Positions 7,450 to 25,721 of a stretch of 44,807 bases of DNA are shown here, piece after piece. The position numbers were made by a program, and so were the translations under genes. Numbering within the stretch: the stretch's first letter is position 1; each line of letters starts with the position of its first letter. The stretch spans positions 1 to 44,807 of the forward strand of contig JAITTS010000009.1 in the NCBI GenBank assembly GCA_031286995.1. The letters run 5' to 3'. The stretch comes from Oscillospiraceae bacterium (GTDB lineage Bacteria > Bacillota > Clostridia > Christensenellales > Aristaeellaceae). The notes beneath the pieces were generated by a model. That model saw only the letters and a list, made by a program, of their open reading frames with translations, was not told the DNA's origin and made no database searches.

Positions 7450-8487
7450 TCAGCGGTCGCCGCCCGCCTGCACGTCGATGAGCACCTTCATGGTGGTCTC
7501 ACGATTGGCGTCAATGTACTGATAGGCGGCCAGGTACTGATCAAAAGGGAAGGTTTTGCTCATCAGCAGATCCAGCTGTATCTTGCCGGCCCCGGCCAGA
7601 GCAATGGCATCCACATAGTCCTCGTGACGGTACATCATGGTGCTCTTGATATCCAGCTCGTGGTCGTTGGCCACGGCTAAATCCACGGTGGCCATGCCGG
7701 CGAACACCGCCACCAGAATGATGACAGAACCTTTGCGCGCGTACTTGATGGCCTGCCCCATGGTGATATCCGTGCCCGCGCAGTCGTAGATCACATCCGC
7801 CTTATCCGGGCCGAAGGCTTCTGCCATGGCCTCACCAAAATCCGTAACGCGGGTGTTGACGGCGTAATCAATGCCGCACTTCTTGGCCAAATCCAGCCGC
7901 AGGTCGCTGATATCGGTGATGAGCACGGCTTCCGCACCCATGCCCTTGGCGGTCTGCGCCACCAGGTTGCCGATAGGCCCCGCGCCCAGCACGGCGATCT
8001 TGAGCCCACGCACATCCCCCGCTTGCTTGACGGCATGCACGGCCACGGCCAAGGGCTCTATCATCGCGCCCTGATCATAGCTCATGTTTTCGGGGAGGGG
8101 GGTGACCTTGCCCTCGTCCACCGCGAAGAAGGTGGATGCGGTGCCTGTGGTCTGGAAGCCCATCACCTTCAGTTCCTCGCAGAGGTTGTACTTGCCGTGC
8201 CGGCAGGGATAGCACTTGCCGCAGACCACCTGGGGCTCTATGGTCACCTTTTGGCCCACAGCCACCTTGGTGACGCCCTGGCCCACAGCCTCTACCTGGC
8301 CGGATACCTCGTGACCCTGGGTGACCGGATACTTGGTGAAGGGGTGCTTGCCATGGAAGACGTGGATATCCGACCCGCACACACCGATCTTCATGATCTT
8401 GACCAGCACCTGGCCCGGGCCGGGCTGGGGGGTGGGCACATCGCGAAACGCAAGGACGCCCGGGGCGGTCATAATCTGCTGTTTCAT
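7450..8487 (-). CDS. Zinc-dependent medium-chain alcohol/polyol dehydrogenase
   Basis: A 345-residue medium-chain dehydrogenase of the threonine/sorbitol dehydrogenase type, oxidising a secondary hydroxyl with NAD(P). Catalytic zinc ligands are Cys37 (GVCGSD), His59 and Glu60 (GHE), with Glu144 near the site. Four structural-zinc cysteines are at 89, 92, 95 and 103. The Rossmann loop GAGPIG is at 168-173. GGAGGAAA lies ahead of the ATG. This is the last gene of the long carbohydrate operon, 33 bases after the SDR stop. Whether it acts on the imported substrate before phosphorylation or on a sugar phosphate is unknown. It is distinct from the two other zinc dehydrogenases in this window. Confidence 0.9.
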   Translation of the reverse strand: MKQQIMTAPGVLAFRDVPTPQPGPGQVLVKIMKIGVCGSDIHVFHGKHPFTKYPVTQGHEVSGQVEAVGQGVTKVAVGQKVTIEPQVVCGKCYPCRHGKYNLCEELKVMGFQTTGTASTFFAVDEGKVTPLPENMSYDQGAMIEPLAVAVHAVKQAGDVRGLKIAVLGAGPIGNLVAQTAKGMGAEAVLITDISDLRLDLAKKCGIDYAVNTRVTDFGEAMAEAFGPDKADVIYDCAGTDITMGQAIKYARKGSVIILVAVFAGMATVDLAVANDHELDIKSTMMYRHEDYVDAIALAGAGKIQLDLLMSKTFPFDQYLAAYQYIDANRETTMKVLIDVQAGGDR

Positions 8488-8520: not shown

Positions 8521-9285
8521 TTAGAAGGCCGTGTAGCCTCCATCCACAATCACATCCGCGCCGGTGGTGTAACCGGCCCAGGGGCTGGCCAGGTAGAGCA
8601 CGGCAGGCATCAGTTCTTCCGGCTCGCCGAAACGGTGCTGGGGGATCAGCGGCAGCCAGGCGTCCTTCAGATCCTGCGGGGTATCCACGGACATGGGGGT
8701 GTTGATGTAACCGGGGCTTAAAGAGTTGACGCGGATGCCGTGGGGCGCCCACTCCAGCGCCAGCGAGCGGGTGAGGTGAATGACGCCGGCCTTGGATGCG
8801 TTGTAGGAAGCCTGCCATTGGGGGATGTTGGCCACCGTGCCGGACATGGACGCCATGTTGATGATGCTGCCCTTGATGCCCTGCGCTATCATGGCCCTTG
8901 CCGCGGCGCGGGCCACGATGTATTCGCCGGTCAGATTGATGTCGATGACCTCTTTCCACTCGGCGATGGTGGCATCCAGCGTATCCTTGTGCAGGCAGAC
9001 ACCGGCGTTGTTGAACACGATATCCAGAGAGCCGGCCAGGCGCAGCACCTCGGCGATGCCTCTATCCACCTGATCCTCCTGCGTTACATCCACAATCAGG
9101 TCGTAGGCCTTGCCGCCGATGGCCTCAATTTGCTTCGCGGTCTGCGCCGCGCCCGTGCGCGAAAAAATAGCCACCGCGGCCCCGGCCTTGGCCAGACCCA
9201 GCGCCACCACCTGGCCGATGCCCCGGCCCGCGCCTGTGACCAGGGCCACCTTGCCCTTTAAGCTAAACAATTCTTCCAAGTACAT
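8521..9285 (-). CDS. Short-chain dehydrogenase/reductase (SDR)
   Basis: A 254-residue classical SDR. The cofactor-binding TGAGRGIG is at 17-24, NNAG at 92-95, and the catalytic set is Asn117, Ser148, Tyr161 and Lys165 (YNASK). The C-terminus matches the gluconate 5-dehydrogenase or 3-oxoacyl reductase branch (GYTTGADVIVDGG). The start at 9285 is set by TAGGAGGA just upstream; an earlier in-frame ATG lacks a ribosome site. Placed between the FGGY kinase and a zinc dehydrogenase, it most likely oxidises or reduces a sugar or sugar-acid hydroxyl in the same pathway. The substrate cannot be told from sequence. Confidence 0.92.
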   Translation of the reverse strand: MYLEELFSLKGKVALVTGAGRGIGQVVALGLAKAGAAVAIFSRTGAAQTAKQIEAIGGKAYDLIVDVTQEDQVDRGIAEVLRLAGSLDIVFNNAGVCLHKDTLDATIAEWKEVIDINLTGEYIVARAAARAMIAQGIKGSIINMASMSGTVANIPQWQASYNASKAGVIHLTRSLALEWAPHGIRVNSLSPGYINTPMSVDTPQDLKDAWLPLIPQHRFGEPEELMPAVLYLASPWAGYTTGADVIVDGGYTAF

Positions 9286-9355
9286 GCCGATTCCTCCTAT
9301 TGTATCAATTTGTATCAATCATTTATGGCCCTGAGGTTTTGCGCAGGGGCGTGGA

Positions 9356-10900
9356 TCAGGCCTGGGCCCCCTCCAGGGCACGGGCTTGCGCCAGCCTTTC
9401 GTATACGGGGATGAGCTGCTCGTAGGTGAGCAAAAAATCTCGGTACAAGTGGGCGTACAGCGCCGCGTTTTGCGGGTTGGGCCGTACCTCATCCACAATT
9501 TTGTTGTAGCGGCGGGCCGCGCCGTAATCCGCGTAGGCCCCGATGGCCACACCCCCGGCCACCGCCGCGCCCATGGAGGTGGCTTCCTCTAAATAGCGGG
9601 GCACCAGCAGAGGCTTGCCCCAGATATCCGCGAGAATTTGCAGCCATTCGCGCCCCTTGGCCCCGCCGCCTATCATGGTGATGGCGCTGACAGGGGCGTG
9701 GCCCTCCAGCACATCCAGAATGATCTTCAGGTTGTAGCCCACGCCCTCCAGCACCGCGCGGGTCATATCCTCGCGGGTGGTGGTGACGCCCAGCCCCACA
9801 AAGGCCCCGCGGGCGTCGTGATTCCAGTGGGGGCTGCGCTCGCCCAGCAGGTAGGGCAGGTACAGCAGCCCGCCTGCGCCGGGCTTGCTCTTGCGGGTGT
9901 GGCGGTTGAGAATTTGGTAAGGGCTGACGCCCGCCAGATCGGCGGCGAATGCCTCCGGCCCGCACAGGGTATCCCGATACCAACTGTAGGAATAGCCGGC
10001 CGCCTGCATGGTGCCGCAGGGGGTAAACAGCGCAGGATCCAGGTGCAGCCAGTTAAAGGTGCGCATCTTGGGATCAAAGTAGGGCGCCCTGGCCGCGCGG
10101 CATATCCAGGATGAGGAGCCAATGATATTGTAGGTATCCCCTTCGTCCACCACACCTGCGCCCACGGTGGCGCAACTGCCGTCGCCGCCGCCGATGACCA
10201 CGGGCGTGCCCGCCGATAGCCCGGTGGCATGGGCGGCCGCGGGCGTGACGCGGCCCACCACCTCTGCCGAGGCGTGCAAATCCGGCAGCAGATTCTCGCG
10301 GATATCCCACGCCTCCAGCAACTCTTTCGACCAGGCCCTGGCCTCAATATCCAGCAGGTTGGTGCTGGAAGCGTCGCTATAATCCGTGGCAAAGGCGCCG
10401 GTGAGGCGGTAGACCACGTAATCCTTGGCGTGTATCATCTTGTGGGCTTTTTGGTATAGGCCCGGCTCGTTGTCCCGTATCCACAGCAACTTAGCCGCTG
10501 CGTAGGATGCGCTGGGCCGGTGCCCGGTGATACGGTAGCCGCGGGCCATATCCACCCGATCCAGCATCCACTTCTCTTGTTTGGCGCTGCGGGTGTCGGC
10601 CCATATCAGCATGTTGCGCAGGGGCGTGCCGTGCTCATCCACGATCAGGCAGCCCAGCATGATGCCGCTGAAGCTGACGCAGGCGATATCTCCGGCGGCA
10701 ATGCCGCTCTTCTCCAGCAGTTCGTGCGTGCAGCCGCACACCGCCTGCCACCAATTGTCTGGATCGTGCTCTACCGCACCGTCAAAGGGGTAGTAAGTAG
10801 GGTAGCCGCGCACCACGCTGCAGGCCAGGTTGCCATCCAAATCGTACAAAGTGGCTTTGTTGCCGCTGGTACCCAGGTCGTGGGCGAGTATGTATTGCAT
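9356..10900 (-). CDS. FGGY-family carbohydrate kinase (xylulokinase-like)
   Basis: A 514-residue FGGY kinase, the usual length for the family, which transfers phosphate from ATP to a sugar, ketose or polyol. The first ATP-binding motif is HDLGTSGNK at 7-15. The substrate-side WADTR block is at 100-104, and the catalytic base is expected at Asp240 in IGGGDGS. The adenosine motif GGGAKGREW follows near residue 410. AAAGGGGG precedes the ATG. The SMP-30 gene stops 13 bases upstream, so the genes are cotranscribed. A second FGGY kinase at 24167 is clearly different in sequence, so the locus handles either two substrates or two steps. Confidence 0.92.
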   Translation of the reverse strand: MQYILAHDLGTSGNKATLYDLDGNLACSVVRGYPTYYPFDGAVEHDPDNWWQAVCGCTHELLEKSGIAAGDIACVSFSGIMLGCLIVDEHGTPLRNMLIWADTRSAKQEKWMLDRVDMARGYRITGHRPSASYAAAKLLWIRDNEPGLYQKAHKMIHAKDYVVYRLTGAFATDYSDASSTNLLDIEARAWSKELLEAWDIRENLLPDLHASAEVVGRVTPAAAHATGLSAGTPVVIGGGDGSCATVGAGVVDEGDTYNIIGSSSWICRAARAPYFDPKMRTFNWLHLDPALFTPCGTMQAAGYSYSWYRDTLCGPEAFAADLAGVSPYQILNRHTRKSKPGAGGLLYLPYLLGERSPHWNHDARGAFVGLGVTTTREDMTRAVLEGVGYNLKIILDVLEGHAPVSAITMIGGGAKGREWLQILADIWGKPLLVPRYLEEATSMGAAVAGGVAIGAYADYGAARRYNKIVDEVRPNPQNAALYAHLYRDFLLTYEQLIPVYERLAQARALEGAQA

Positions 10901-10913
10901 GGGCAGCCCCCTT

Positions 10914-11897
10914 TCACAGTGCCAGCATGGCCAGGGTAGCGGGCATTTCGTGGGCGGTGTTCACCTTGGTATCATCCGTCACCAGGTCAAAGCAGGATGC
11001 CACGATCAGCCCGTTCCACACGATGGGTTCGCCGGGCTGATCCAATCCGCCGTCCAATCCGTCGCAATCCGGGCTTTGGGCGATACGCTCCAGCCGCCCA
11101 TCCGGGTACATCTTGCAGATGGCGTTTACGTTAAAATCAGCGATGTACATGTTGCCGGCCTCGTCAAACACCATACCATCCGTGCTGACAAGCTGATCAG
11201 AATCCTTGGCGAAGGGCTTGTTTTCGGCCACGCTGCCGTCGGGGTTAAAGGTGATGCGGTAGAGTTCCCCGTCGCCAAAGTTGCCCACGTACAGGTTGCC
11301 CGCCGCGTCAAAGGCAATGCCATCCGCGCCGTATTGCACCCGGGGGTTTTGGGTGACGAACGTGGCGATGATGTGGGGATCATCCAGGGTGTTGGGCACA
11401 TCCACATCCCGCTCATCCAGACCGAAGCGGTATACACAGCTCACCAATTTGCCGGAGGGATGGCGCACCCTGGATAAGAGGCTCTGGGTCACGTACATGT
11501 AGTTGCCGCGCACGCGCACGCCGTTGGGGTGCTCCATGTTCTTGGCCACCGTGGCCCAATCCTGTATGTTGCCGGCGTCGTCTACCGTCACCTTCAGCAT
11601 GCGGCCCTTAAAGGCCAGTTCCGGCGCGCCGCTCCAGCCCTGGTTGTCGCAGATGTACAGGTTCCAATCCGCATCAAAGTCAATGCCCATGTTGCGGGCG
11701 ACGCCGGTCTGCGGGTGCACGGGCACCTCGAACCATTTGGAGATTTTGCGGCTCTTATCGAAGCGCACCACCACGCCGGGCTGGCCATCCGCGTAGTTGG
11801 GGCAAGAGAGCACCAGGTTGCCGTGGCGGTCTATGGCCATGCTATCCGGGGTAGAGATGTAGGGGGGAAGAGCAGCGAAAAGCTGGGGCTGTAGCAT
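10914..11897 (-). CDS. SMP-30/gluconolactonase-like beta-propeller protein
   Basis: A 327-residue beta-propeller with repeated Asp-x-x-Gly-Asn-Leu blades (DRHGNLVLSC, DADWNLYICD, DAAGNLYVGN, DEAGNMYIAD). Family enzymes open sugar lactones with a divalent metal. Possible metal ligands are the Asn in HPNGV and the Asp in STDGMVF. The usual N-terminal EGP glutamate is replaced by the STPDS segment, so lactonase activity is probable rather than certain. The start at 11897 is chosen because AAAGGAG stands ahead of it; the longer frame would overlap the upstream gene. No signal peptide, so it acts in the cytoplasm. It follows a zinc dehydrogenase, a fit for oxidation of a hemiacetal followed by lactone opening. 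Confidence 0.8.
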   Translation of the reverse strand: MLQPQLFAALPPYISTPDSMAIDRHGNLVLSCPNYADGQPGVVVRFDKSRKISKWFEVPVHPQTGVARNMGIDFDADWNLYICDNQGWSGAPELAFKGRMLKVTVDDAGNIQDWATVAKNMEHPNGVRVRGNYMYVTQSLLSRVRHPSGKLVSCVYRFGLDERDVDVPNTLDDPHIIATFVTQNPRVQYGADGIAFDAAGNLYVGNFGDGELYRITFNPDGSVAENKPFAKDSDQLVSTDGMVFDEAGNMYIADFNVNAICKMYPDGRLERIAQSPDCDGLDGGLDQPGEPIVWNGLIVASCFDLVTDDTKVNTAHEMPATLAMLAL

Positions 11898-11932
11898 AGG
11901 GGGAGTCGCTCCTTTCGGTTGCTTGTGGGCGG

Positions 11933-12985
11933 TCATTCGTAGGCGATGACGATCTTCTTGGTGCCGGGCAGGCGTTTTTCCGCCAGGTCAAAGGCCGCGG
12001 TGATCTGCGCGAAGGGGATGACGTCGGATATGTAATCCGCGGGGTGCAGCACCCCGGCGTTTATCCACGCCATCACCTGGCTGTGGGCCTGGTATTCCTC
12101 ATACTTGGAAGGGAACTGCACGAATTGCAGCGTCCAGTTATAGGGGCCGCCGCTCCAATCCAACTGCATATCCAGCTTGGCGCTAATGCCATAGCCGCAG
12201 ATTTTGCCATTGTATTTCACCAGGCGCATAGCCTGGTTCAGCAGGTCGTTGACCCCCACTGCATCCACGATGTTGTCCGCGCCGTTTGGGAAGATGCGGC
12301 GTATCTCCGCCTCCGCTTCCTGCTTTTTGCTGTTGATGGTAATATCCGCCCCCAGGCGCGCGGCCTGGGCGGTCTTTTCGTCAAAGATATCCACCGTGAC
12401 CACCGGGCCCATGCCCAGCAGCTTGGCAAAGCGGGTGAAGCACAGGCCTACCGGGCCCGCGCCAAAGACCACCAGGTTCTCGTTGGGTTTGAAGCCGAAG
12501 CGGCGCATGGCGCTGAGCACCTCGCGGAAGGTGATGACCATGGCCGCGCCCGCCGCATCCACCGCGTCATCCGGGCGGACGATGCTCTGCGCCCAGCAAC
12601 CTTCGTCATAGCCTGGGGTACCGGCGCCCTGCCCGGCTCTGGCGAAGGCGCCCTCATCCCCGACGACAGCGTACTCGGCGTACGCGCCCCAGCCGCTGAA
12701 GTAGCCATCCTGCGGGGCGTAGAGAAAGGGCAGCAACACCACGTCGCCCACCTTGTACTTGGTGACGTTGCGGCCCACTTCCACCACGCGGCCCACACCC
12801 TCGTGACCCAGCAGCATGGGGTAATCGTGCATGTTTTTGAACGTACCGTGGATCAGCTTGCCATCCGTGCCATTGCACACGCCGCAGCTTAGGGTCTTGA
12901 CCAGCGCCTGGCAAGGCCCGTAGGCGGGCATGGAAAGCTGGGGCACGCTCAGTTTGCCATTGGCGTCCACCGCAAGTCCCCGCAT
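11933..12985 (-). CDS. Zinc-type dehydrogenase lacking the structural-zinc cysteines
   Basis: A 350-residue medium-chain dehydrogenase. Catalytic zinc ligands are kept: Cys37 (CGVCNGTDG), His61 and Glu62 (LGHEGVG). The nucleotide loop FGAGPVG is at about 174-180. The lobe that normally carries four structural-zinc cysteines is replaced near 86-104 by an aromatic segment (PFLYAPQDGYFSGWGAY), so only one zinc is expected. This resembles glucose-dehydrogenase-like branches and suggests a sugar substrate. AAGGAGGG sets the ATG at 12985. It sits between the GntR regulator and the SMP-30 gene, 36 bases ahead of the latter. Together they could oxidise a cyclic sugar to a lactone and hydrolyse it; this is inference. 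Confidence 0.85.
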   Translation of the reverse strand: MRGLAVDANGKLSVPQLSMPAYGPCQALVKTLSCGVCNGTDGKLIHGTFKNMHDYPMLLGHEGVGRVVEVGRNVTKYKVGDVVLLPFLYAPQDGYFSGWGAYAEYAVVGDEGAFARAGQGAGTPGYDEGCWAQSIVRPDDAVDAAGAAMVITFREVLSAMRRFGFKPNENLVVFGAGPVGLCFTRFAKLLGMGPVVTVDIFDEKTAQAARLGADITINSKKQEAEAEIRRIFPNGADNIVDAVGVNDLLNQAMRLVKYNGKICGYGISAKLDMQLDWSGGPYNWTLQFVQFPSKYEEYQAHSQVMAWINAGVLHPADYISDVIPFAQITAAFDLAEKRLPGTKKIVIAYE

Positions 12986-13034
12986 GGGCAGTTCCCTCCT
13001 TGTTGTTTGCATAGTTTTGCTGATGCCAGCGGCA

Positions 13035-13073
13035 ACGGCGGGAGAGACCCGGGGAAGGTGGGCGCCCCGCCGT
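13035..13073 (-). other. Weak inverted repeat after the GntR gene
   Basis: An eight-base-pair stem (ACGGCGGG with CCCGCCGT) with a 23-base loop lies between the GntR stop and the next gene. There is no U tract, so termination is doubtful; it may tune mRNA stability inside the operon. Confidence 0.3.
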
Positions 13074-13822
13074 CACCGGTACAGGTCGATGCTGAATTTG
13101 TTGCGGTCACCGCGATAGCGCGCCACGGAATACTCCACCGGCGCATCATCCTGCCCGTAGCCCAGGGTCTTGACCAAACAGACGGCCTGGCCGGCCTCCA
13201 CGCAGAGCAACTCCGCTTCGCGCCGGTTGGCGTTGGCGGCCTCTATCTCGCGGTGGGCGCGGCAGACGCGGGTGCCGTACAGAGCCTCCAGCCGCTCGTA
13301 AAGGGAGGCGCGCTCAAAATCCTGATCCAGGATGGCGGGGAACCGCGCAAAGGGCAGGTACGTATCCACGCACACCACCGGCTCGCCGTCGCCGAAACGC
13401 AGGCGCATCAGGCAGATGAGCGGCTCATCCGGGGTCAACAGCAGCCTGTCGTTGATGCGCTGTACGCCCGGCGCCTTGCGCAGGGAGAGCACCCGGGTGG
13501 AGGGGATCAATCCCTTCTGCGTCATCTGGTCGTTAAAGCTCTCCAGCTTTTGCAGAAAGCGCACATCAATCTTGGGCTGGGATACAAAGGTGCCCTTGCC
13601 CTTGCGGCGGGTCAGCCAGCCCTCGGCCACCAACTCACTCATGGCCTGGCGCACGGTGGGGCGGCTTACGCCCAGGTGCTCGCACAGATCGTTCTCCGGG
13701 GGCAGCATGTCGCCTACCCGCAGCGCACCGCTATCAATCATGCCCTGTACGCGCATCTTTAATTGATAGTATAAGGGTACGGGCGTGGCCTTGTCTACAG
13801 AAAACAGCGCGACGCCAGTCAT
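13073..13822 (-). CDS. GntR-family (HutC/UTRA) transcriptional regulator
   Basis: A 249-residue repressor-type regulator. The N-terminal winged helix-turn-helix runs from about 12 to 80, with LPPENDLCEHLGVSRPTVRQ as recognition region and the RKGKGTFV wing. The rest is a UTRA effector domain of the HutC subfamily, which usually binds a sugar phosphate or related metabolite. It is embedded in the operon between the 2-hydroxyacid dehydrogenase and a zinc dehydrogenase, so it is expected to control that operon. The palindrome ATGTCATGACAT over the operon start at 21574-21585 has the yGT...ACr ends seen in HutC-type operators and is its most likely target. Site and effector are inference. Confidence 0.9.
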   Translation of the reverse strand: MTGVALFSVDKATPVPLYYQLKMRVQGMIDSGALRVGDMLPPENDLCEHLGVSRPTVRQAMSELVAEGWLTRRKGKGTFVSQPKIDVRFLQKLESFNDQMTQKGLIPSTRVLSLRKAPGVQRINDRLLLTPDEPLICLMRLRFGDGEPVVCVDTYLPFARFPAILDQDFERASLYERLEALYGTRVCRAHREIEAANANRREAELLCVEAGQAVCLVKTLGYGQDDAPVEYSVARYRGDRNKFSIDLYR

Positions 13823-13874: not shown

Positions 13875-14807
13875 TCATCGCTCGTCGGTCAGCGAAGCCA
13901 GTAAATTCTGTGCCGCCATCATGCCCATGTTTTCCACCGCGCCTTGGGTGGATGCCGCACAGTGCGAACCCATCACCAGGTTATCCAGGGCGTAGAGTGC
14001 CTCGTCCTGGGGCGGTTCCTGGGCAAAGGCATCCATGCCGGCGGCATAAATGGTGTGGTTTTGCAGGGCACGCACCAGGGCGGCTTCGTCCACCAGGCCG
14101 CCGCGGGCGGTGTTGACCAAAATGGCCGTGGGCTTCATGGCCTGAAACTGCGCGTCGGATATCATGTGACGGGATTCGTCGGTTAAAGGCAGGTGCAGCG
14201 AGATAAAGTCGCACGCGGCGTATATCTCTTCCGGCCGGGCGTAGACGATGCCGTTGGCGGCCGCGTAATCCTTATCCCAATAGATGTCGTAGGCCAGCAC
14301 GCGCATGCCAAAGCCCGCAGCCCGGCGGGCCAGGCCCTTGCCGATAGCGCCAAGGCCCAGTATGCCGATGGTCTTGCCCCAGATATCCAGGGTGGTCACC
14401 TTGCCCCAATCCCTGCGGCGGCAAGCCGCGTCGATGGGCACCAACTTGCGGGCGCAGGCGGCCATCAGGGCAAAGGCGTAATCCGCCACCGCATCCGCAT
14501 TGGCCCCGCGGGTGATGCTGACGGGGATATTCAGCTCTTTCGCGCGGGGCATGTCGATGTTATCCACGCCCACGCCATACTTGGATATGGCCCGCAGCTG
14601 CTTTGCCGCGCCCAGCACCCGGGCGGTCATGGGGTCTACGCCCAATATCACACCCACCGCGCCGGCGATATGCTCGCACATCTCGTCCTCTGTCATAATC
14701 CGCCCCAGCGGGTTCTTCACCACGGTGTACCCCGCGCGCTCCAAGAGGCCGATGGGGTCGCCCGCCTGGCCAAAGCTGCGGGGCGTGGCCAATATTTTGC
14801 CCGCCAT
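13875..14807 (-). CDS. D-isomer-specific 2-hydroxyacid dehydrogenase
   Basis: A 310-residue enzyme of the phosphoglycerate/glyoxylate reductase family, interconverting 2-keto and D-2-hydroxy acids with NAD(P). The nucleotide loop GLGAIG is at 151-156. The catalytic residues are present: Arg235 (NTARGG), Glu264 (FAQEPP) and His282 (GSHCA). There is no ACT or regulatory domain, unlike many serine-pathway enzymes. The start is the ATG at 14807; a GTG three bases earlier is also possible. It overlaps the stop of the AroE-like gene, so they are translationally coupled. Presence of this enzyme argues that a 2-keto or 2-hydroxy sugar acid is a pathway intermediate. Confidence 0.9.
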   Translation of the reverse strand: MAGKILATPRSFGQAGDPIGLLERAGYTVVKNPLGRIMTEDEMCEHIAGAVGVILGVDPMTARVLGAAKQLRAISKYGVGVDNIDMPRAKELNIPVSITRGANADAVADYAFALMAACARKLVPIDAACRRRDWGKVTTLDIWGKTIGILGLGAIGKGLARRAAGFGMRVLAYDIYWDKDYAAANGIVYARPEEIYAACDFISLHLPLTDESRHMISDAQFQAMKPTAILVNTARGGLVDEAALVRALQNHTIYAAGMDAFAQEPPQDEALYALDNLVMGSHCAASTQGAVENMGMMAAQNLLASLTDER

Positions 14808-15760
14808 CACTTTTTGCCCCCGATCAGTTCCATGGCGATGTCGCTCATCTGCTGCAGCACCGGGCCTTCGATGGGCACGTTAAACACTTCGGCGATCACT
14901 TGCGTCCAGCCGTGGATGAAGTAAACCCAGCCGTCCTCCACGTGCAGAGATTTCTCCTTGGCCTGCGCCTGGGCCTGGTACATAAAGATGAGATCGCCGC
15001 GGTAGTTAATCTCCCACACCAGGCTGTGCGGAGAATACTGCACGGCATCTGTGGTGGGGCTGCCGGGGGCGTCTTTGCCCAGGCCCGTGGCGTTAACCAC
15101 CAAAGAGTAGGGCGGCAGGCCGGCGATCAGTGCGTCGTTGCCGCTGGGATCCGGCCTGTGCTCAAAGGAGAAAGTCACCTTGGGGTTGAGGCCGGAGAGC
15201 ACCTTTTTGGCGGATTCCAGCCTGGGCAGGCTGCGGTTGGCCAGTATGATGCGCTTGGGCACGTTGTCGCCAAACTTCTCCTGCGTAAAGTAGAGGGACA
15301 TGGCCAGAGAACTGCCGCCCGCGCCGATGAGCAGCACTTCGCCGCCGTGATCCCGCCAGAAGTTTTCAGGCACAAAGTTTTCCAGCGCCAGGCCGCTGGA
15401 GATGGGGTCTTTGGCGTGGGCGTGGAATACCCCGCCGCGTTTGAACAGAGAGGATACCTCGCTCAGCTTCTCGGCATAGGGGTCTACGTAGTCGAACTGA
15501 TCGCGGCAGGCGGTGAATAGGTCGAGCTTGTGGGTGGTGACCAGCGCGCCGTAGGAGAGGGGGTCGCGCTTGATAAAATCCACCACCTGGCGATACTGCT
15601 CGGCGGGCGCGTGCAAGGGCAGATCAAAGCCCTTGATGACCGCATCCTTTAGGCCCAGGGCCTGGGCCCATAGCGGAAACACCTTCATGATGGAGGATTT
15701 GCCTGTGGTGACGCCGATAAAGTAGATGGTGGGCTGGGTTGCGGGTGCAAAATCGAACAT
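14807..15760 (-). CDS. Shikimate-dehydrogenase-like oxidoreductase of unknown substrate
   Basis: A 317-residue protein with the AroE two-domain plan. It keeps the catalytic Lys78 (YGALVTTHK), the partner Asp118 (AKDPISSG), the nucleotide loop GAGGSS at 146-151 and the NATGLG segment. It departs from true AroE in the N-terminal substrate loop: the usual S-x-SPxxHN pattern is replaced by TGKSSIMKVFP at 19-29. It also sits in a sugar operon with no aromatic-pathway genes. Biosynthetic shikimate oxidation is therefore unlikely; a cyclic polyol or sugar-acid substrate is more plausible. A GAGGAG site eight bases ahead of the ATG at 15760 decides the start; the GTG at 15769 is too close to it. Function is inference. 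Confidence 0.8.
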   Translation of the reverse strand: MFDFAPATQPTIYFIGVTTGKSSIMKVFPLWAQALGLKDAVIKGFDLPLHAPAEQYRQVVDFIKRDPLSYGALVTTHKLDLFTACRDQFDYVDPYAEKLSEVSSLFKRGGVFHAHAKDPISSGLALENFVPENFWRDHGGEVLLIGAGGSSLAMSLYFTQEKFGDNVPKRIILANRSLPRLESAKKVLSGLNPKVTFSFEHRPDPSGNDALIAGLPPYSLVVNATGLGKDAPGSPTTDAVQYSPHSLVWEINYRGDLIFMYQAQAQAKEKSLHVEDGWVYFIHGWTQVIAEVFNVPIEGPVLQQMSDIAMELIGGKK

Positions 15761-15765
15761 GCTGG

Positions 15766-16743
15766 TCACTCCTCAATCTGAATCGTCGGTCTCATCTGAA
15801 AAATCCGGGCCGGGTTTTCCACAAAGATCTGGGTTATTTGGGCTTCGGTCACCCCCGCGTCGCGCAGCAAGGGTACAAAATTTTGTAACAGGCCCGCTAA
15901 GCCTGGTGTGCCGCCGTAGCCGGTCAGGCGTAGGCGGGTCACATCCAGCCCGGCCAGCAAGCGGTTGCCGTATCCTGCGCGCAGCATATGGCGGAATATC
16001 TCCGCCTCCCGCGCGTCATCGTGGTACTTGGGCCGGGCGATGGTGTCATACTCCAGGGTGATGCCGCGTTCGCACAGTGCCCTGTGCACGACTAAATCCG
16101 GCGTGGCCCTATCCATATGGCAGAAGACGGCGCGGGTCAGATCCAATCCCTGCCCGGCCAGAAAATCCGCTAGGGCCAGGGGATCGGTCCGGGGCTCTAT
16201 GTGCACCATCAGCGGCGCGCCGGCCGCTATGGCGGCCCCCGCGGCGGCGGCAAAACGCACACCCTGGCGGCCCGTCAGCGGGCCCGGCTCCAGCGCGGCC
16301 TTCACCTGCCCTGCCCGGGCCTCTCCCTGCCGGGCAGGCGGGGCCTCGTCCCCATCCAGGTACATGCCCCGCGTCAGCTCGTCTGTGAACAGGGCCTGCA
16401 ACGCTTGCTGGGGCAGCGTGTGCACCCAGTGGTTATCCGGGTAATGGCGCGGCAGATGAAAGCCCGTAGAGGCCACCACATGCACGCCGGATGCCCGCGA
16501 CAGGCTGACCAGCGCGCGCGCGTCGCGCCCCGCGCCCAGGGGCTGCGCATCCACCAGCGCCTGCCCCCCCGCGCGGCGGTAAGCAAGCAGATCGGTCAGC
16601 GTGCGCTGTTCGTCGTCTATCACCAGGCCGGGGCTGTGCGCGCGCAGGTGCGCACAGGCGGCACTGATGTGCTCGTGGCTTTGGCAGAAGCCCAGCTGCG
16701 CCGGGGGCAGCGGCCCCAGCACCGTTACAATTGCAGCCGTCAT
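15766..16743 (-). CDS. Phosphotriesterase-family hydrolase, probable sugar lactonase
   Basis: A 325-residue amidohydrolase-superfamily protein of the phosphotriesterase group. All binuclear metal ligands are visible: His23 and His25 (SHEHIS), the bridging carbamylated Lys148 (AGQVKAAL), His181 (MVHIEP), His209 (FCHMDR) and Asp267 (AGLDVTR). Characterised members of related groups hydrolyse sugar lactones and phosphorylated sugar lactones. No signal peptide, so it is cytoplasmic. Its ATG overlaps the permease stop (ATGA), and its stop lies just before the AroE-like start, so it is tightly coupled to both. Together with the SMP-30 protein it gives the operon two unrelated lactonase-type enzymes. 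Confidence 0.87.
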   Translation of the reverse strand: MTAAIVTVLGPLPPAQLGFCQSHEHISAACAHLRAHSPGLVIDDEQRTLTDLLAYRRAGGQALVDAQPLGAGRDARALVSLSRASGVHVVASTGFHLPRHYPDNHWVHTLPQQALQALFTDELTRGMYLDGDEAPPARQGEARAGQVKAALEPGPLTGRQGVRFAAAAGAAIAAGAPLMVHIEPRTDPLALADFLAGQGLDLTRAVFCHMDRATPDLVVHRALCERGITLEYDTIARPKYHDDAREAEIFRHMLRAGYGNRLLAGLDVTRLRLTGYGGTPGLAGLLQNFVPLLRDAGVTEAQITQIFVENPARIFQMRPTIQIEE

Positions 16744-17747
16744 TTGACCACCAGCCCACGGGTGGAACGATCTACAGAGATGGCCACGGCCGCCAGCACA
16801 AAGAAGCCGAACACGATGCTTTGCCAGTAAGCATCCACCTTGATAAAGTTCATGCCGTTCTGAATGACCGAGACGGTGAAGGCGCCGACCACCGTGCCCA
16901 GTACGCCGCCGCGGCCACCGGATAGAGATGTACCGCCCAGCGCCACGGATGCCACGATCAGCAGCGTAAAGGGGTCGCCCACCGTGGGGGCGCTGCTGCG
17001 CAGTTTGGCCGCCAAAAAGTAGCCGCCGATGGCCGCGCACACGCCGCTGAGCACAAAAGCGACGATCTTGGCTTGATCCACCCTTGTACCGGCAATTCGC
17101 GCCGCCCGTTCGTTGCCGCCGATGGCGTAGAGCGCCTTGCCGAAGGAGGTGCGGGATTGAAACAGGTAGGCCACGGCCACCCAGGCCAGGGCGAGCACCA
17201 GCGAGAGACCGACAACGCCGAAGGTCACCTTGAACCAGTTGATGCCGCCCCACATCACTTTGGCCACGGATACCGGGGCAGCGGTGATCAGGTACGCCAC
17301 GGATTGCCACAGGGACATAAAGCCCAGCGACGCGATAAAGGAGGGCACCTTTAGCTTTACGTGCACAAAGCCCAGCAGCAGCCCCGCGACCGCGCCAAAG
17401 GCCGCCGCCGCCAGCAGCGCCACCACCGCGCCCAGCGCGGGCGGGCCCAGTTGCGGCCCCAGCTCGTTGATGATCATCACGGTTAGCACGTTGGCCACCG
17501 AGCACACAGAGCCCATGGATAGGTCAATGCTGCCCAGCAGCAGCACCAACGTCATGCCCGTGGCCATGATGAGCAGCGGCGCGCTGTCACTGAGCAGGGT
17601 TTTTAGATTGGCCACGCCTAAAAAGTTGGGGCGCGCCAGCGTGAACCCGACGACCAGGATGACGATGGCGGAGAAACTGAAATACTTGACCAGGTTGTCG
17701 CGCAGGCGCGGGCCTTTCTCCGCGCCGGGTTTGGTCGGTTGGCTCAT
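16740..17747 (-). CDS. Sugar ABC transporter permease (RbsC type)
   Basis: A 335-residue integral membrane protein of the ribose/xylose/galactose permease family. It has about eight to ten hydrophobic segments and the family hallmark LLGSIDLSMGSV near residue 70. The second hallmark, ALGGTSLSGGRGGVLGT, is near residue 265. GGGAGGAAG precedes the ATG. It is the second permease of the operon, 23 bases after the ATPase stop, and would pair with the permease at 19311 as a heterodimer. Its stop overlaps the start of the phosphotriesterase-like gene. Confidence 0.93.
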   Translation of the reverse strand: MSQPTKPGAEKGPRLRDNLVKYFSFSAIVILVVGFTLARPNFLGVANLKTLLSDSAPLLIMATGMTLVLLLGSIDLSMGSVCSVANVLTVMIINELGPQLGPPALGAVVALLAAAAFGAVAGLLLGFVHVKLKVPSFIASLGFMSLWQSVAYLITAAPVSVAKVMWGGINWFKVTFGVVGLSLVLALAWVAVAYLFQSRTSFGKALYAIGGNERAARIAGTRVDQAKIVAFVLSGVCAAIGGYFLAAKLRSSAPTVGDPFTLLIVASVALGGTSLSGGRGGVLGTVVGAFTVSVIQNGMNFIKVDAYWQSIVFGFFVLAAVAISVDRSTRGLVVK

Positions 17748-17770: not shown

Positions 17771-19300
17771 CTACATCATGGCGCTGACCACATCCACCTG
17801 GCTGGGTTTGCCCCGGGCCGGGGCGTCAAACGCCCCGCTCAGCCGCCCATCCTTCATCACCAACACCCGGTTGCTCATGCCGATGCATTCATCCAGCGTA
17901 TCGCCCAGCAGAATGACGGCCTTGCCCTCCTGCATCATGTCGCGGATCAGGCCGTAAAATTCCTCTTTCGCGCCCACATCCACACCCCGGGTGGGGTGGT
18001 TGAGAATGAGGATTTCGCACTTGCTCGCCAGCGCGCGGGAGAACACCACCTTTTGCTGGTTACCACCGGATAGCTGCATCAAAAGCTCCTTGGGGCCGCG
18101 GGTCTTGATGCGCAGGCGACCGATAAGGCGCAGGGCCTGCTCGCGCACGCGGGCGGCCAGCACAAAAGGGCCTTTTGATACCAGCCTGTGGTTGGATGCG
18201 GCGATGTTGTCCTCTACCGAAAGCGTGCGCACAATGCCCTCTACCAGGCGTTCCTTTGGGATCATCAGCACACCCGCCGCCAGCGCCTGGGCAGGGGATT
18301 GAAAATCCGCCTTTTGGCCATGTATGTACAGCGCGCCGGCTGTGGGCTTCTGGTCGCCGCAGAGCACCTCGCACACATCTTCTTTGCCGCTGCCCACCAC
18401 GCCGCATACGCCCAGCACCTCGCCCCGGCGCAGGGCGAAATTGACATCCTTGAACACGCCGGAGAGGCCGAGGCCCTTTGCCTCCAGCACCACCGCATCC
18501 TGCGGCTCAACCTGCCGCTCCAGCTTGTAATATTCACTGGTGGTGCTGCGGCCCACCATCATCTCGTAGAGCAGGGGTTCGGTGGCATCCCCGGTATTCA
18601 GCGAACCAACGCTCGCGCCGTCCTTGTAGACGTAGATGCGATCGGTCACTTCCAATATCTCATCCAGCCGGTGGGATACGAACACCACCGCATGCCCGCA
18701 GGCGGCGATTTTGCGCATCTGCACGAACAGGTTCTCCGTCTCCTCTTCGCTGAGCACGGAGGTGGGCTCGTCGAGCAGGATCATGCACTTGCGGCCATCC
18801 GTGCGCTGGGTCACGTTCATCACCTTGGCGATCTCCACCATCTGCCGGGTGGCAAAGTTGAGGTCGCTCACTTTTTTGCGGGGGTTGATGTGTCCCACAT
18901 CCACCTCCTCCAGCACCCGCTGCGCCTGCTTGTACATGCGGGGCCAGTTGATCACACCGTAGCGGCGAAAATCCCGCTCGTGACCGAAGAAGATGTTCTG
19001 CCCCACGCTGAGGTTGACGATAAGGGATTGCTCCTGAAAAACCATGCCCACGCCGGCCGCGTTGGCCTCCATGGGGTTTTTGGGCGCATAGGGCTGGTCC
19101 TCCATGGTCATCTGGCCGGATGAGGGATTTTCCGCGCCGATGATGATCTTGAGCAGCGTGGATTTGCCCGCGCCGTTCTCGCCCACCAGGCCCACAATTT
19201 CGCCCTCGCGCACCTCTAAATCCACGCCTTTGAGGGCGTGGGTAGCGCCGTAGTGCTTCACGATGCCCTTGGCGCTGAAACAGACTTTGCTCTCTTGCAT
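17771..19300 (-). CDS. Sugar ABC transporter double ATPase with one degenerate site
   Basis: A 509-residue tandem ATPase of the RbsA/MglA/XylG class. NBD1 keeps Walker A (GENGAGKST, 40-48) and Walker B with Asp177-Glu178, but its signature reads LNFAT at 147-151 instead of LSxGQ. NBD2 keeps the signature LSGGN at 410-414, but its Walker A is GVVGSGKED (300-308) and its Walker B reads LILNH (431-435), so the catalytic Asp-Glu is Asn434-His435. The substitutions fall on one composite site: NBD1 Walker motifs with the NBD2 signature stay complete, the reverse site is lost. Degenerate NBD2 Walker A is usual in this class; the NBD1 signature and NBD2 Walker B changes are more extreme. Confidence 0.93.
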   Translation of the reverse strand: MQESKVCFSAKGIVKHYGATHALKGVDLEVREGEIVGLVGENGAGKSTLLKIIIGAENPSSGQMTMEDQPYAPKNPMEANAAGVGMVFQEQSLIVNLSVGQNIFFGHERDFRRYGVINWPRMYKQAQRVLEEVDVGHINPRKKVSDLNFATRQMVEIAKVMNVTQRTDGRKCMILLDEPTSVLSEEETENLFVQMRKIAACGHAVVFVSHRLDEILEVTDRIYVYKDGASVGSLNTGDATEPLLYEMMVGRSTTSEYYKLERQVEPQDAVVLEAKGLGLSGVFKDVNFALRRGEVLGVCGVVGSGKEDVCEVLCGDQKPTAGALYIHGQKADFQSPAQALAAGVLMIPKERLVEGIVRTLSVEDNIAASNHRLVSKGPFVLAARVREQALRLIGRLRIKTRGPKELLMQLSGGNQQKVVFSRALASKCEILILNHPTRGVDVGAKEEFYGLIRDMMQEGKAVILLGDTLDECIGMSNRVLVMKDGRLSGAFDAPARGKPSQVDVVSAMM

Positions 19301-19310
19301 GCGTTTCGCC

Positions 19311-20330
19311 TCACTTGCTGACGACCTTGGCGCCGTGGGCCACTGTCAGCGCCACAGCGGTCAGGATGATCAGGCCTTCAATGCCGGTTTTGATGTAGGA
19401 ATTGACGCCCACGAGCAGCAGCCCGTTGGCCAGCACGGTCATGATCAGCACGCCCACAATGGTGTTGGTGACGCCGCCCTTGCCGCCGGAAAGGGATGTG
19501 CCGCCCACCACCACTGCGGCCTGGGCAGGGAACATCAGGTCATTGCCCGCCGTCACGTCGCCTTGCCCCAGGCGTATGCCGTAGAGCACCCCCGCGATGC
19601 CGAAGCACAGGCCCGCCAGGGTAAAGACCATCACCTTCACCCGATTGACACTGACACCCACCGCGCGCAGAATGGTCTCATCCGTGCCCACGGCATAAAT
19701 GTAACGGCCGAAGGCCGTGTACTCCTGGATGAAGATGCACACCAGCAACACCGCAACGGCCACCCAGGTGATGAAGGGGATGCCCAGCCAGTAGGTCTTG
19801 GGTAGCGCCACGAGCAGCGGGTCTATGATCTTGGGCGGCTGCCCCGCGTAGGAGAGCAGGCCCAGACCCTTGCACACGTACATAAAGGCGAAGGATACCA
19901 TAAAGGAAGGGATTTTGAGATACACGTGGATCAGGCCGACTGCCAGGCCCACCAGCACGCTGCCCAGCACAGCCAGCAGCACCCCCAGGAAGCCCAGGTT
20001 CAGGGGGAACCGGTTGTTCATCACCAGCACGCCCACCAGCGCGGCGGCCATGCCCACAGTGCCGTTGATGGAGAGGTCGATGCCGCCGATCATGATCACG
20101 AACGTCAGGCCCAGGGCTACCAGCAACGGGATGGCAAGCTGGTTCAAAATGGCCACCATGTTCGTGAATGAGGCAAAGGCCGCGCCGCGGGCCGCCGTAA
20201 AGATGAGCACCAAGGCCAGCAGCACAATCATGGGCGCGTAGCGCATGACGCGCTCCCTCTGGCCATCCCGCCGCACCTTGGCCGCAAATTCTTCCGCAAT
20301 GGTCATGGGGGTGGGTTGTTTTGCCGCCAT
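19311..20330 (-). CDS. Sugar ABC transporter permease (RbsC type)
   Basis: A 339-residue permease of the ribose/xylose family with multiple membrane segments. It carries the family signatures FVIMIGGIDLSINGTVG near 85 and VVGGTSLSGGKGGVTNT near 280. The start at 20330 has TGGAGCGAG just upstream; a longer frame begins inside the upstream hairpin and has no ribosome site. It lies ahead of the ATPase gene with a ten-base gap and would form the channel with the permease at 16740. A transcription-attenuating hairpin separates it from the binding-protein gene. Confidence 0.92.
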   Translation of the reverse strand: MAAKQPTPMTIAEEFAAKVRRDGQRERVMRYAPMIVLLALVLIFTAARGAAFASFTNMVAILNQLAIPLLVALGLTFVIMIGGIDLSINGTVGMAAALVGVLVMNNRFPLNLGFLGVLLAVLGSVLVGLAVGLIHVYLKIPSFMVSFAFMYVCKGLGLLSYAGQPPKIIDPLLVALPKTYWLGIPFITWVAVAVLLVCIFIQEYTAFGRYIYAVGTDETILRAVGVSVNRVKVMVFTLAGLCFGIAGVLYGIRLGQGDVTAGNDLMFPAQAAVVVGGTSLSGGKGGVTNTIVGVLIMTVLANGLLLVGVNSYIKTGIEGLIILTAVALTVAHGAKVVSK

Positions 20331-20369
20331 AATCTCGCTCCATTCTGTGGGGGATGTGCGGGGCTTCAT

Positions 20370-20450: not shown

Positions 20451-21539
20451 TCAGTCCGCCTTGCAGGCGAAGGGCTTGGAGAAATCGAACTCCGGCACGC
20501 TGCTGAGGTATTCCGCAGCGTTCTCCTTGGTGATGAGCAGCGCAGGGGTCGCGAACTCGCGATACTCAGGCGGCAACGTCGTCACATCAATCAGGCCGGC
20601 CCAGGCCGCATAGCAGATGGCCAGGGTGTAGCCGCCCTGCAGATACCCGTTGCTGGAGACCGTGGCCACGGCGAACCCATCGCGCACAGCCTCCACGATG
20701 TCGGTGTTGGCATCCACGCCGGTCACGCCCACTTTGCCCTTTAGCCCCGCTTTTTCAAGCGCCTGCAGCGCGCCGGTGGCCATGTTGTCGTTGGCGCACC
20801 ACACGCCGCCCACGTCGGGATCCTTGCCCAGCCAGGTCTCCACCAGGGTCAAGGCCTCGGCCGTCGCCCAGTTGCCGGTGTCGCGACCGGCTACCGTGAT
20901 ATCGGGATACTCCGCCAGCGCCTGATCCAGACCCTTGGCGCGGTCGATGGCGGCGGTGTTGCCCAGCATGCCCTCGCACACAAAAATCTTGCCCTTGCCG
21001 CCCATGTAATCAAACAGCGCCTTGGCGGTGTTGTAGCCGTTGATCACATTATCCGGAGAGGTGTGGATGACCCAGTTGGGGGTCAGATCCGCCGGGCCCA
21101 CGTCAGCCGGCTTGTTCCACGCGGTGCCGATGAAGCCGCCCGCCTCGGCCATGGCCTCGGCCAGGGAGTAGGCGATGGCGTTCTCGTTGGGGTCGGAATA
21201 GGCCAGCGCGTTGCCCCCCGCGTTGGCGGCGAACTGACGCATGTTGTCCACTTCTTTGTTGCTGTCTCCGCCGGAATCAAGCACCTGCATCTCGTACTTT
21301 TGGCCGATGCTGTCCAGGTACACGGCGAACATCTCCATGCCGACTTTGATGGTGGCGATGTAGGGGTTCTCCAGGCCGCGGACAGAGACCGCCAGGGATA
21401 CCACCGTGTCCAGCTTCTCCTGAGGGATCTTCGCGGGGTCGATGGTGAAGTCCTTGAGTTCCTCAGCCAAAGCCAAGGTGCCCCCCCCCACCATGGCCAG
21501 CGCCAGTACCAGCGCCAGCAGAACCTTGATGCGCTTCAT
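20451..21539 (-). CDS. Sugar ABC transporter substrate-binding protein
   Basis: A 362-residue binding protein of the ribose-binding type (periplasmic-binding domain 4). It has a signal peptide at 1-24 (MKRIKVLLALVLALAMVGGG) ending in ALA, with no lipobox cysteine. The two-lobe fold shows VSLAVSVRGLENPY near 44 and the GVTGVDANTDIVEAV hinge region near 260. AGGAGGAAATT sets the ATG at 21539. It is the first gene of the 13-gene operon, behind a consensus promoter. The class binds monosaccharides, polyols or similar small carbohydrates; the ligand is not predictable here. How it stays near the membrane without a lipid anchor is an open point. Confidence 0.93.
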   Translation of the reverse strand: MKRIKVLLALVLALAMVGGGTLALAEELKDFTIDPAKIPQEKLDTVVSLAVSVRGLENPYIATIKVGMEMFAVYLDSIGQKYEMQVLDSGGDSNKEVDNMRQFAANAGGNALAYSDPNENAIAYSLAEAMAEAGGFIGTAWNKPADVGPADLTPNWVIHTSPDNVINGYNTAKALFDYMGGKGKIFVCEGMLGNTAAIDRAKGLDQALAEYPDITVAGRDTGNWATAEALTLVETWLGKDPDVGGVWCANDNMATGALQALEKAGLKGKVGVTGVDANTDIVEAVRDGFAVATVSSNGYLQGGYTLAICYAAWAGLIDVTTLPPEYREFATPALLITKENAAEYLSSVPEFDFSKPFACKAD

Positions 21540-21573
21540 GGGCAATTTCCTCCTCCATTTTCTCAATGCCATT

Positions 21574-21790: not shown

Positions 21791-22165
21791 ATGATATCGC
21801 AGTATCTCGTGGGCCTGCAGCACATCGGCATCCCCACGCACGATGTGGGCGCCACCGTGGCCTTTTACAAGAGCCTGGGCTTTGAGGAGACTTGGCAGAG
21901 CGAAAGGGATCACGTGGCTTTTTTGAAGCTGGGCAGCCTGGTGGTGGAAACCTACCTGGGCGAGACCCATCCCGTGGCCGGGGCCATCGACCACCTGACC
22001 ATTGACGTGACGGATATCCACAGGGTATTTGATGAGGTGAAAGCCGCGGGCTACAAACTGATAGACCCCGCCATCATCACGCTGCCCTTCTTCAGCAAGG
22101 GATGCAGCTACTTCATGATAGAGGGGCCCAACAAGGAAAGGGTGGAGTTTAACCAGATTCTCTAA
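21791..22165 (+). CDS. VOC-superfamily (glyoxalase-like) metal enzyme
   Basis: A 124-residue vicinal-oxygen-chelate protein with two beta-alpha-beta-beta-beta modules. Four metal ligands are recognisable: His in LQHIGIPT, Glu in VVETY, His in IDHLTID and Glu in RVEFNQ. This set is typical of glyoxalase I and methylmalonyl-CoA epimerase, which act through enediolate intermediates. The second ATG at 21791 is preferred because AGGAG is nine bases ahead of it and only three from the first. It is divergent from the carbohydrate operon and convergent with the DeoR gene, whose stop it overlaps. A role as isomerase, epimerase or detoxifier of a reactive keto product is plausible. Confidence 0.85.
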   Translation: MISQYLVGLQHIGIPTHDVGATVAFYKSLGFEETWQSERDHVAFLKLGSLVVETYLGETHPVAGAIDHLTIDVTDIHRVFDEVKAAGYKLIDPAIITLPFFSKGCSYFMIEGPNKERVEFNQIL

Positions 22166-22944
22166 ACCACCCGCAGGCTCAGCCCGCCTTCCCGAATCGC
22201 GTCGGCCATTTTGCCGGGCACGCCGCTGTCGGTCACCAGCATGTCCACATCCCGCGGGTCGGCAAACTTCAAAAAGCTGGCGCGGCCCAGTTTGCCGCTA
22301 TCCACCAGGGCCACGCTGCGGTTGGCGATAGCGATGAGCGCCTGCTTCACCTCCACCAGTTCGCTCTTGGGCGTGGTGAACCCCTTCTCCATAGAGAAGG
22401 CGTTCGCCCCGAGGAAGGCGATATCCACATTCAGGCTGCGTATGGCCGATACGGTCATGGCGCCGGTGGCCATGTTAAAGCCTTTGCGGAGTTGGCCGCC
22501 CGCCAGGTACACCGCGGCGTCGCTGCGGGCATCCAGGTAGGTGGCAATCTCCACATCGTATGTCACCACGGTGAGGCCCTTGCGCTCGCACAGGGCGCGG
22601 GCCAGTTCCATGGTGGTGCTGCCCGCATCCAGCGCCACGGTGTCCCCCTCTTCCACCAGGGTGGCGGCGAACTTGGCGATGCGTTGCTTTTCGGTGAGGT
22701 GGTGCCCCTGCTTGATCTGCGGCGTGGGTTCAAAGCCCGCCTTAAAGAGCGTCATGGCCCCGCCGTGGGTGCGGTGCAGGCGCCCGGATCGCGCCAGGGC
22801 GCGCAGATCGCTGCGGATGGTGGCGGCTGATACGCCGAAACGCTGGCACAGCTCGGCCACGCGCAGGTTGGCCTGTGCATCCAGCAGGGCAAGAATGCGC
22901 TCTCGGCGCCCCTCGGTAAAGAGTGTGCGCTCGGGGGGTTGCAT
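22162..22944 (-). CDS. DeoR/GlpR-family transcriptional regulator
   Basis: A 260-residue regulator. The N-terminal helix-turn-helix is at about 12-65 (RRERILALLDAQ, ELCQRFGVSAATIRSDL, HRTHGGA). A DeoR C-terminal sensor follows (VALDAGSTTMELA, VDIAFLGANAFS, VDSGKLG), a fold related to sugar-phosphate isomerases that usually senses a phosphorylated sugar. The ATG at 22944 is chosen because AGAGGGGTGA precedes it. It stands between the VOC gene and the divergent Gfo/Idh-kinase-dehydrogenase genes and probably controls those. The kinase product would be a natural effector; this is inference. Confidence 0.9.
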   Translation of the reverse strand: MQPPERTLFTEGRRERILALLDAQANLRVAELCQRFGVSAATIRSDLRALARSGRLHRTHGGAMTLFKAGFEPTPQIKQGHHLTEKQRIAKFAATLVEEGDTVALDAGSTTMELARALCERKGLTVVTYDVEIATYLDARSDAAVYLAGGQLRKGFNMATGAMTVSAIRSLNVDIAFLGANAFSMEKGFTTPKSELVEVKQALIAIANRSVALVDSGKLGRASFLKFADPRDVDMLVTDSGVPGKMADAIREGGLSLRVV

Positions 22945-22987
22945 GGGTTCACCCCTCTTCATCAACACATATCGGATGGATGATTTT

Positions 22988-23016
22988 ATTATAGCTGACC
23001 CGGCTGTCCCTGTAAA
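22988..23016 (-). promoter_or_regulatory. Sigma-A promoter of the DeoR gene
   Basis: TTTACA and TATAAT, 17 bases apart on the minus strand, about 45 bases ahead of the regulator start. I found no convincing plus-strand promoter for the divergent Gfo/Idh gene in the same 150 bases. Confidence 0.75.
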
Positions 23017-23094
23017 GCACCGCGTGCCGCGCGGCGGCCGGGAGGGGGAAGGGACACCCGTGGCCCCCAAGCCTGGCAGAAAGGAACAACGCAC

Positions 23095-24114: not shown

Positions 24115-24166
24115 GGCGCAGCCTGCCACCCATCCGTCCTGCTACCCAAACGAGGAGGCGAAGCAC

Positions 24167-25672: not shown

Positions 25673-25721
25673 GGGGGCCGCCCGCCTCATCAATCGACAA
25701 AAAAGGAGAAGCAAACAAGCT

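Follow-up and report, generated by a model that had tools for sequence, protein, structure and literature searches.

An AroE-like clade in conserved sugar-phosphate gene clusters, with a possible role as a phosphorylated-sugar dehydrogenase

The protein encoded at positions 14807-15760 on the minus strand of the window (the whole stretch of 44,807 nucleotides analysed here) belongs to a clade that carries the shikimate dehydrogenase (SDH) fold and is found among sugar-phosphate enzymes. We use AroE* as a working name for this protein and its relatives. Our preferred reading, which we hold tentatively and at a little under even chances, is that AroE* acts as an NADP(H)-dependent phosphorylated-sugar dehydrogenase in a conserved catabolic module, oxidising an aldose-phosphate to a lactone. 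The first-pass annotation had proposed that an AroE-like enzyme was recruited from shikimate to sugar metabolism, and this proposal is well supported by the loss of substrate contacts, a canonical aroE elsewhere in the genome, a discrete clade and a conserved sugar-phosphate neighbourhood. The clade is now annotated as shikimate dehydrogenase, a label that misleads metabolic models if, as is probable, these are sugar-phosphate enzymes.

The genes of the window operon are as follows.

7450-8487, minus strand: Zn alcohol/polyol dehydrogenase
8521-9318, minus strand: SDR oxidoreductase
9356-10900, minus strand: FGGY sugar kinase, XylB-like (371 bits against a cut-off of 380)
10914-11936, minus strand: SMP-30/gluconolactonase-like protein, a possible alternative lactonase
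11933-13012, minus strand: Zn alcohol dehydrogenase (Zn-ADH)
13073-13822, minus strand: GntR/UTRA regulator
13875-14810, minus strand: D-2-hydroxyacid dehydrogenase (2-HADH; PF00389/PF02826), overlapping the AroE* stop
14807-15760, minus strand: AroE*, SDH-fold NADP-type oxidoreductase of 317 amino acids, intact reading frame
15766-16743, minus strand: PTE-family lactonase (PF02126; best NCBIfam match phospho-furanose lactonase, below cut-off)
16740-17747, minus strand: Rbs-type ABC permease, overlapping the PTE start by 4 nt
17771-19300, minus strand: sugar ABC ATPase, assigned by sequence and cluster membership
19311-20369, minus strand: Rbs-type ABC permease
20451-21572, minus strand: periplasmic sugar-binding protein (PF13407)

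The operon order is thus sugar-binding protein, permease, ATPase, permease, PTE, AroE*, 2-HADH and GntR regulator, followed by Zn-ADH, SMP-30, FGGY kinase, SDR and Zn-ADH. The AroE* reading frame runs from an ATG at 15760 to a stop at 14807-14809, with a GTG at 15769 as alternative start. Its start lies 5 nt downstream of the PTE stop codon, and at its other end the stop overlaps the start of the 2-HADH gene (TGATG, or GTGA with a GTG start), just as the first-pass annotation had described when it placed the gene close behind a lactonase-type gene and in overlap with a 2-hydroxyacid dehydrogenase; its statement that aromatic-pathway genes are absent nearby likewise holds for the operon. Differences from the nearest relative (79% amino acid identity) are distributed 55/40/143 over the three codon positions, and relatives at 57-79% identity are present in several phyla; the sequence comparison therefore shows that purifying selection acts on the gene and that the reading frame is no chance occurrence.

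A Pfam search with AroE* at E<=10 gave no match, and a PDB search with the single sequence returned nothing; an alignment profile was required. In the PDB, the profile of 22 relatives matched shikimate/quinate dehydrogenases and 5-ketofructose reductase at E 2.5e-8 and weaker. Against AroE models the best score was 30.9 bits, below the curated cut-off of 295. The AlphaFold2 model (mean pLDDT 85.5, pTM 0.82) displays a two-domain SDH fold across residues 7-315, with VIA Z scores of 20-25 to many SDH structures, and it matches the top ones at Z of about 25 and 15-20% identity. The highest score belongs to 5-ketofructose reductase (7cok/7col, Z 25.2), but YdiB and several AroE entries tie with it. 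By its predicted fold, AroE* is a member of the SDH superfamily.

E. coli AroE was mapped onto AroE* by three MAFFT settings and by hhalign. The E. coli positions considered are, as we take from established family knowledge, the shikimate and NADP contacts. All three MAFFT settings agree on four kept positions (S14=S22, T61=T75, D102=D118, Y215=Y253) and on five changed ones (S16 to I24, N59 to L73, N86 to S103, T101 to K117, Q244 to G284), so that among the shikimate contacts S14, S16, N59, N86, T101 and Q244 only S14 is retained. The serine loop had indeed been described as rewritten: the N-terminal loop reads TTGKSSIMKVFP, in which one serine is kept and the other is I24. The correspondence K65=K78 is recovered by hhalign and one of the three MAFFT settings and is absent from the other two, and that of D118 is recovered in all alignments; within the family, K78 is invariant in AroE* alignment A1. 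Lys78 and Asp118 are retained with the numbering given earlier, as is the nucleotide loop (GAGGSS at 146-151), which is accompanied by an NRSxxR NADP-type motif at 175-180, where N149/R150/T151/R154 of E. coli AroE become N175/R176/S177/R180. Since A1 shows no variation at the replacement residues I24, L73, S103, K117 and G284, the pocket is specialised and not decayed. K117 and R254 are new invariant residues in the same alignment that bring in positive charge, and may bind a phosphate or a carboxylate.

On sequence grounds AroE* forms a discrete clade, separated from true AroE by a wide gap in score. Its profile, run on 299 genomes of the phylum, scored 192-572 bits in three genomes and 25-58 bits in the others with a match; at the level of the class, AroE* is present in 9 of 291 genomes. 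The canonical aroE of the same genome lies on a separate contig (C91). A tree that included E. coli AroE, YdiB, the AroE of the same genome and a Shinella AroE paralogue as outsiders joins 87 AroE* sequences in one group (support 100/100), outside the biosynthetic AroE clade to which an ordinary shikimate enzyme would belong. The stem branches are saturated, so the tree does not fix where the clade attaches relative to AroE and YdiB. The sister of the window protein is that of a Clostridia MAG (79% identity). Relatives were drawn from genome contigs (80) and from plasmid records (15, mainly rhizobia and other Alphaproteobacteria), and the hosts include gut Firmicutes, termite-gut Treponema, Atribacterota and plant-associated rhizobia, among others; the search for close relatives found none on viral contigs. 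A Shinella plasmid carries a second, different AroE-like paralogue in its AroE* sugar locus (L084:1764-2570). One Lachnospiraceae contig holds two AroE* copies (L031:5094-6068 and L040), one of them beside only an Rbs-type ABC transporter.

The gene neighbourhood is conserved across this range. Among the 52 loci in which AroE* is flanked by 5 kb or more on each side, a cupin phosphoglucose isomerase and a D-2-hydroxyacid dehydrogenase each accompany it in 44, a lactonase candidate (PTE, UlaG-like MBL or SMP-30) in 42, and KDPG aldolase (Eda) in 38; all five proteins, AroE* included, occur together in 34. In 59 of 87 loci the isomerase gene is the direct neighbour of AroE* (<=150 bp, same strand). 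The isomerase family (PF06560) gives about 77 hits in 299 Bacillota genomes, roughly one in each of a quarter of the genomes, so that a chance meeting with AroE* within 12 kb would be expected about once in a thousand cases. The gene set is common to Bacillota, Spirochaetota and Alphaproteobacteria, and annotated operons of rhizobia, roseobacters and acetobacters show the same set with an MBL hydrolase replacing the PTE of Firmicutes. Smaller versions exist: Atribacterota loci have only isomerase, FGGY kinase, Gfo/Idh and AroE*, and in some Lachnospiraceae a lone AroE* copy has only a transporter beside it. The E. coli-type dehydratases that were looked for are absent from the clusters, with one exception. 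BLASTP within 8 kb of AroE* found no homologue of E. coli Zwf, Pgl, DgoD, DgoK, UxuA or UxaA and a single homologue of Edd, on the opposite strand in locus L083; a KdgK-like kinase occurs in L081 only, and E. coli aroD had no hit in the loci.

In the window itself, isomerase and Eda are not next to AroE*. The isomerase of this genome is a fragment running off the end of contig C176 (L088:1396-1721), beside GntR and deoC. KDPG aldolase lies on contig C103 (L090:1135-2091), fused to a C-terminal VOC-like domain and surrounded by an apparent uronate locus (UxaC-like protein, cupin, TRAP binding protein). The genome thus encodes these parts of the pathway, not all in one place.

A divergent module adjoins the window operon at 22162-26759, with a DeoR regulator on the minus strand and a Gfo/Idh/MocA oxidoreductase, an FGGY kinase and a Zn-ADH on the plus strand. 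An inositol-type pathway built on this module at 22-27 kb was considered and rejected: only about one fifth of the 87 loci have its Gfo/Idh and FGGY families less than 6 kb away from AroE*, and the isomerase accompanies AroE* in most. Relatives of Ruminiclostridium cellobioparum have AroE* operons with a GH88 hydrolase, a TIM-barrel protein and an oligosaccharide-type ABC transporter (L069:5920-7950, also L075 and L077), which may hint at the sugar source. A KduI/KduD-like uronate route, hinted at by the GH88 gene, was likewise set aside, as the three loci represent one lineage and the cupin matches true phosphoglucose isomerases.

The isomerase matches phosphoglucose isomerase of Thermococcus/Pyrococcus over its full length (E 8e-58), and the GHFH and AHR motifs are largely conserved in its family. 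The partner Eda scores above the curated cut-off for KDPG aldolase. These two partners point to a phosphorylated aldose or ketose, and the earlier idea that the substrate is a cyclic polyhydroxy acid (an inositol or quinate analogue, for instance) found no specific support. The 2-HADH resembles hydroxypyruvate/glyoxylate reductases and PGDH. The nearest NCBIfam model of the PTE is phospho-furanose lactonase (below cut-off), and its nearest solved structure is 3msr, presumably the Mycoplasma synoviae member of the following group. Two Mycoplasma PTE-type lactonases hydrolyse D-xylono- and L-arabino-1,4-lactone-5-phosphate (PMC10971088). The partner MBL has a relative in UlaG, the L-ascorbate-6-phosphate lactonase, and scores below the curated cut-off. 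As two unrelated families with characterised phospho-lactonases occupy one place beside AroE*, a phosphorylated lactone is the most likely intermediate, and the lactone-related role raised in the first-pass annotation fits this arrangement.

We infer the substrate, the direction and the order of steps of the pathway from these assignments. An FGGY kinase would phosphorylate a ketose, and the cupin phosphoglucose isomerase would convert the ketose-6-phosphate to an aldose-6-phosphate. AroE* would then oxidise the C1 ring hydroxyl to a lactone in the manner of glucose-6-phosphate dehydrogenase (G6PDH), with Lys78 and Asp118 as the catalytic pair; a lactonase of the PTE, MBL or SMP-30 family would open the lactone to a phospho-aldonate, the 2-hydroxyacid dehydrogenase would oxidise C2 to a 2-keto acid, and KDPG aldolase would cleave that acid. 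The five core proteins map one to one on the five steps after the kinase, which leaves AroE* as the only core enzyme for the conversion of aldose-phosphate to lactone. Known reactions of the SDH family interconvert ketones and alcohols, and we know of no earlier case in which an enzyme of the SDH fold forms a lactone; if the proposed reaction is true, it adds a lactone-forming dehydrogenase to this fold. With a 3-deoxy substrate (e.g. 3-deoxyfructose/3-deoxyglucosone), the 2-keto acid would be KDPG itself, the known substrate of Eda, and a dehydratase would be superfluous. A bolder version, which we regard as unlikely, is that an SDH-fold enzyme replaces G6PDH and the 2-HADH replaces the Entner-Doudoroff dehydratase in an undescribed, widespread gut and soil route, by which 3-deoxy-hexoses, for example Maillard-derived 3-deoxyglucosone or 3-deoxyfructose, would yield pyruvate and glyceraldehyde-3-phosphate via KDPG.

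AroE* might instead reduce or oxidise the ring ketone of a keto-sugar or its phosphate, upstream of kinase or isomerase and in the manner of 5-ketofructose reductase, so that no lactone is formed. The characterised Tatumella enzyme TM-KFR shows that the SDH family includes such a reductase (PMC7954740), and the tied best structural score for 7cok/7col, the kept NADP motif and the Gfo/Idh and Zn-ADH partners of some loci are all consistent with this. However, identity to 7cok is about 16%, the Z score is shared with many AroE and YdiB entries, and the oxidation that precedes the lactonase would have no dedicated core enzyme; we consider the idea doubtful. That AroE* is simply a divergent shikimate or quinate dehydrogenase of aromatic metabolism, as automatic annotation has it, appears very improbable. 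The label in rhizobial records, the common fold and the same catalytic pair speak for it, but five contacts are lost and replaced by invariant residues, a canonical aroE exists elsewhere in the genome, the AroE models give 31 bits against a cut-off of 295, and a sugar-phosphate operon surrounds the gene in 34 of 52 well-flanked loci.

The lactone-forming route could also start from the phosphate of an ordinary 3-hydroxy hexose or pentose. Eda would then have to release hydroxypyruvate, which the 2-HADH would reduce to glycerate. The similarity of the 2-HADH to hydroxypyruvate/glyoxylate reductases and PGDH favours this version, as does the hydrolysis of pentono-1,4-lactone-5-phosphates by relatives of the PTE (PMC10971088). 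It is nevertheless decidedly unlikely: Eda is a canonical KDPG aldolase, BLASTP of the loci found no homologue of GarK-type glycerate kinase (the one kinase class searched for in this respect), and the oxidation at C2 would be left without an enzyme. Under our preferred reading, in which AroE* forms the lactone, the module amounts to a concrete catabolic route, fed perhaps by an unusual sugar present in guts and soils.

A description of the AroE* operon was not found in the open-access literature searched, and several known systems resemble parts of it. AroE, YdiB and quinate dehydrogenase share the fold, the Lys/Asp pair and the Rossmann loop with AroE*, but their contacts at S16, N59, N86, T101 and Q244 are all changed in it. 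The NADP motif is of the AroE type; unlike YdiB and quinate dehydrogenase, AroE* keeps the NADP-type Arg and has no acidic NAD-type residue, and its loci gave no BLASTP hit with E. coli aroD. The oxidative Entner-Doudoroff pathway (Zwf-Pgl-Edd-Eda) likewise combines a sugar-phosphate dehydrogenase, a lactonase and KDPG aldolase, whereas in the proposed route the oxidation of the sugar phosphate would fall to an AroE-fold dehydrogenase, and a 2-hydroxyacid dehydrogenase would stand where the dehydratase does; the BLASTP of the loci found neither Zwf nor Pgl, and its single Edd homologue is encoded on the opposite strand. Profile and structure searches returned SDH-family entries and no Zwf, and AroE* is likened to Zwf in its proposed working only, not by homology. 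The partner lactonases are relatives of the families of UlaG and of the Mycoplasma phospho-furanose lactonases; they score below the curated cut-offs, and exact substrates may differ. 5-Ketofructose reductase (Gluconobacter 7cok/7col and Tatumella TM-KFR) is, as AroE* is proposed to be, an NADPH-dependent SDH-superfamily enzyme of sugar metabolism, but it shares 16% identity and reduces a free diketohexose; we know of no isomerase/lactonase/aldolase operon for it. An SDH-family enzyme of sugar metabolism is therefore already known in this reductase (PMC7954740), and what is new is the AroE* clade and its pathway context.
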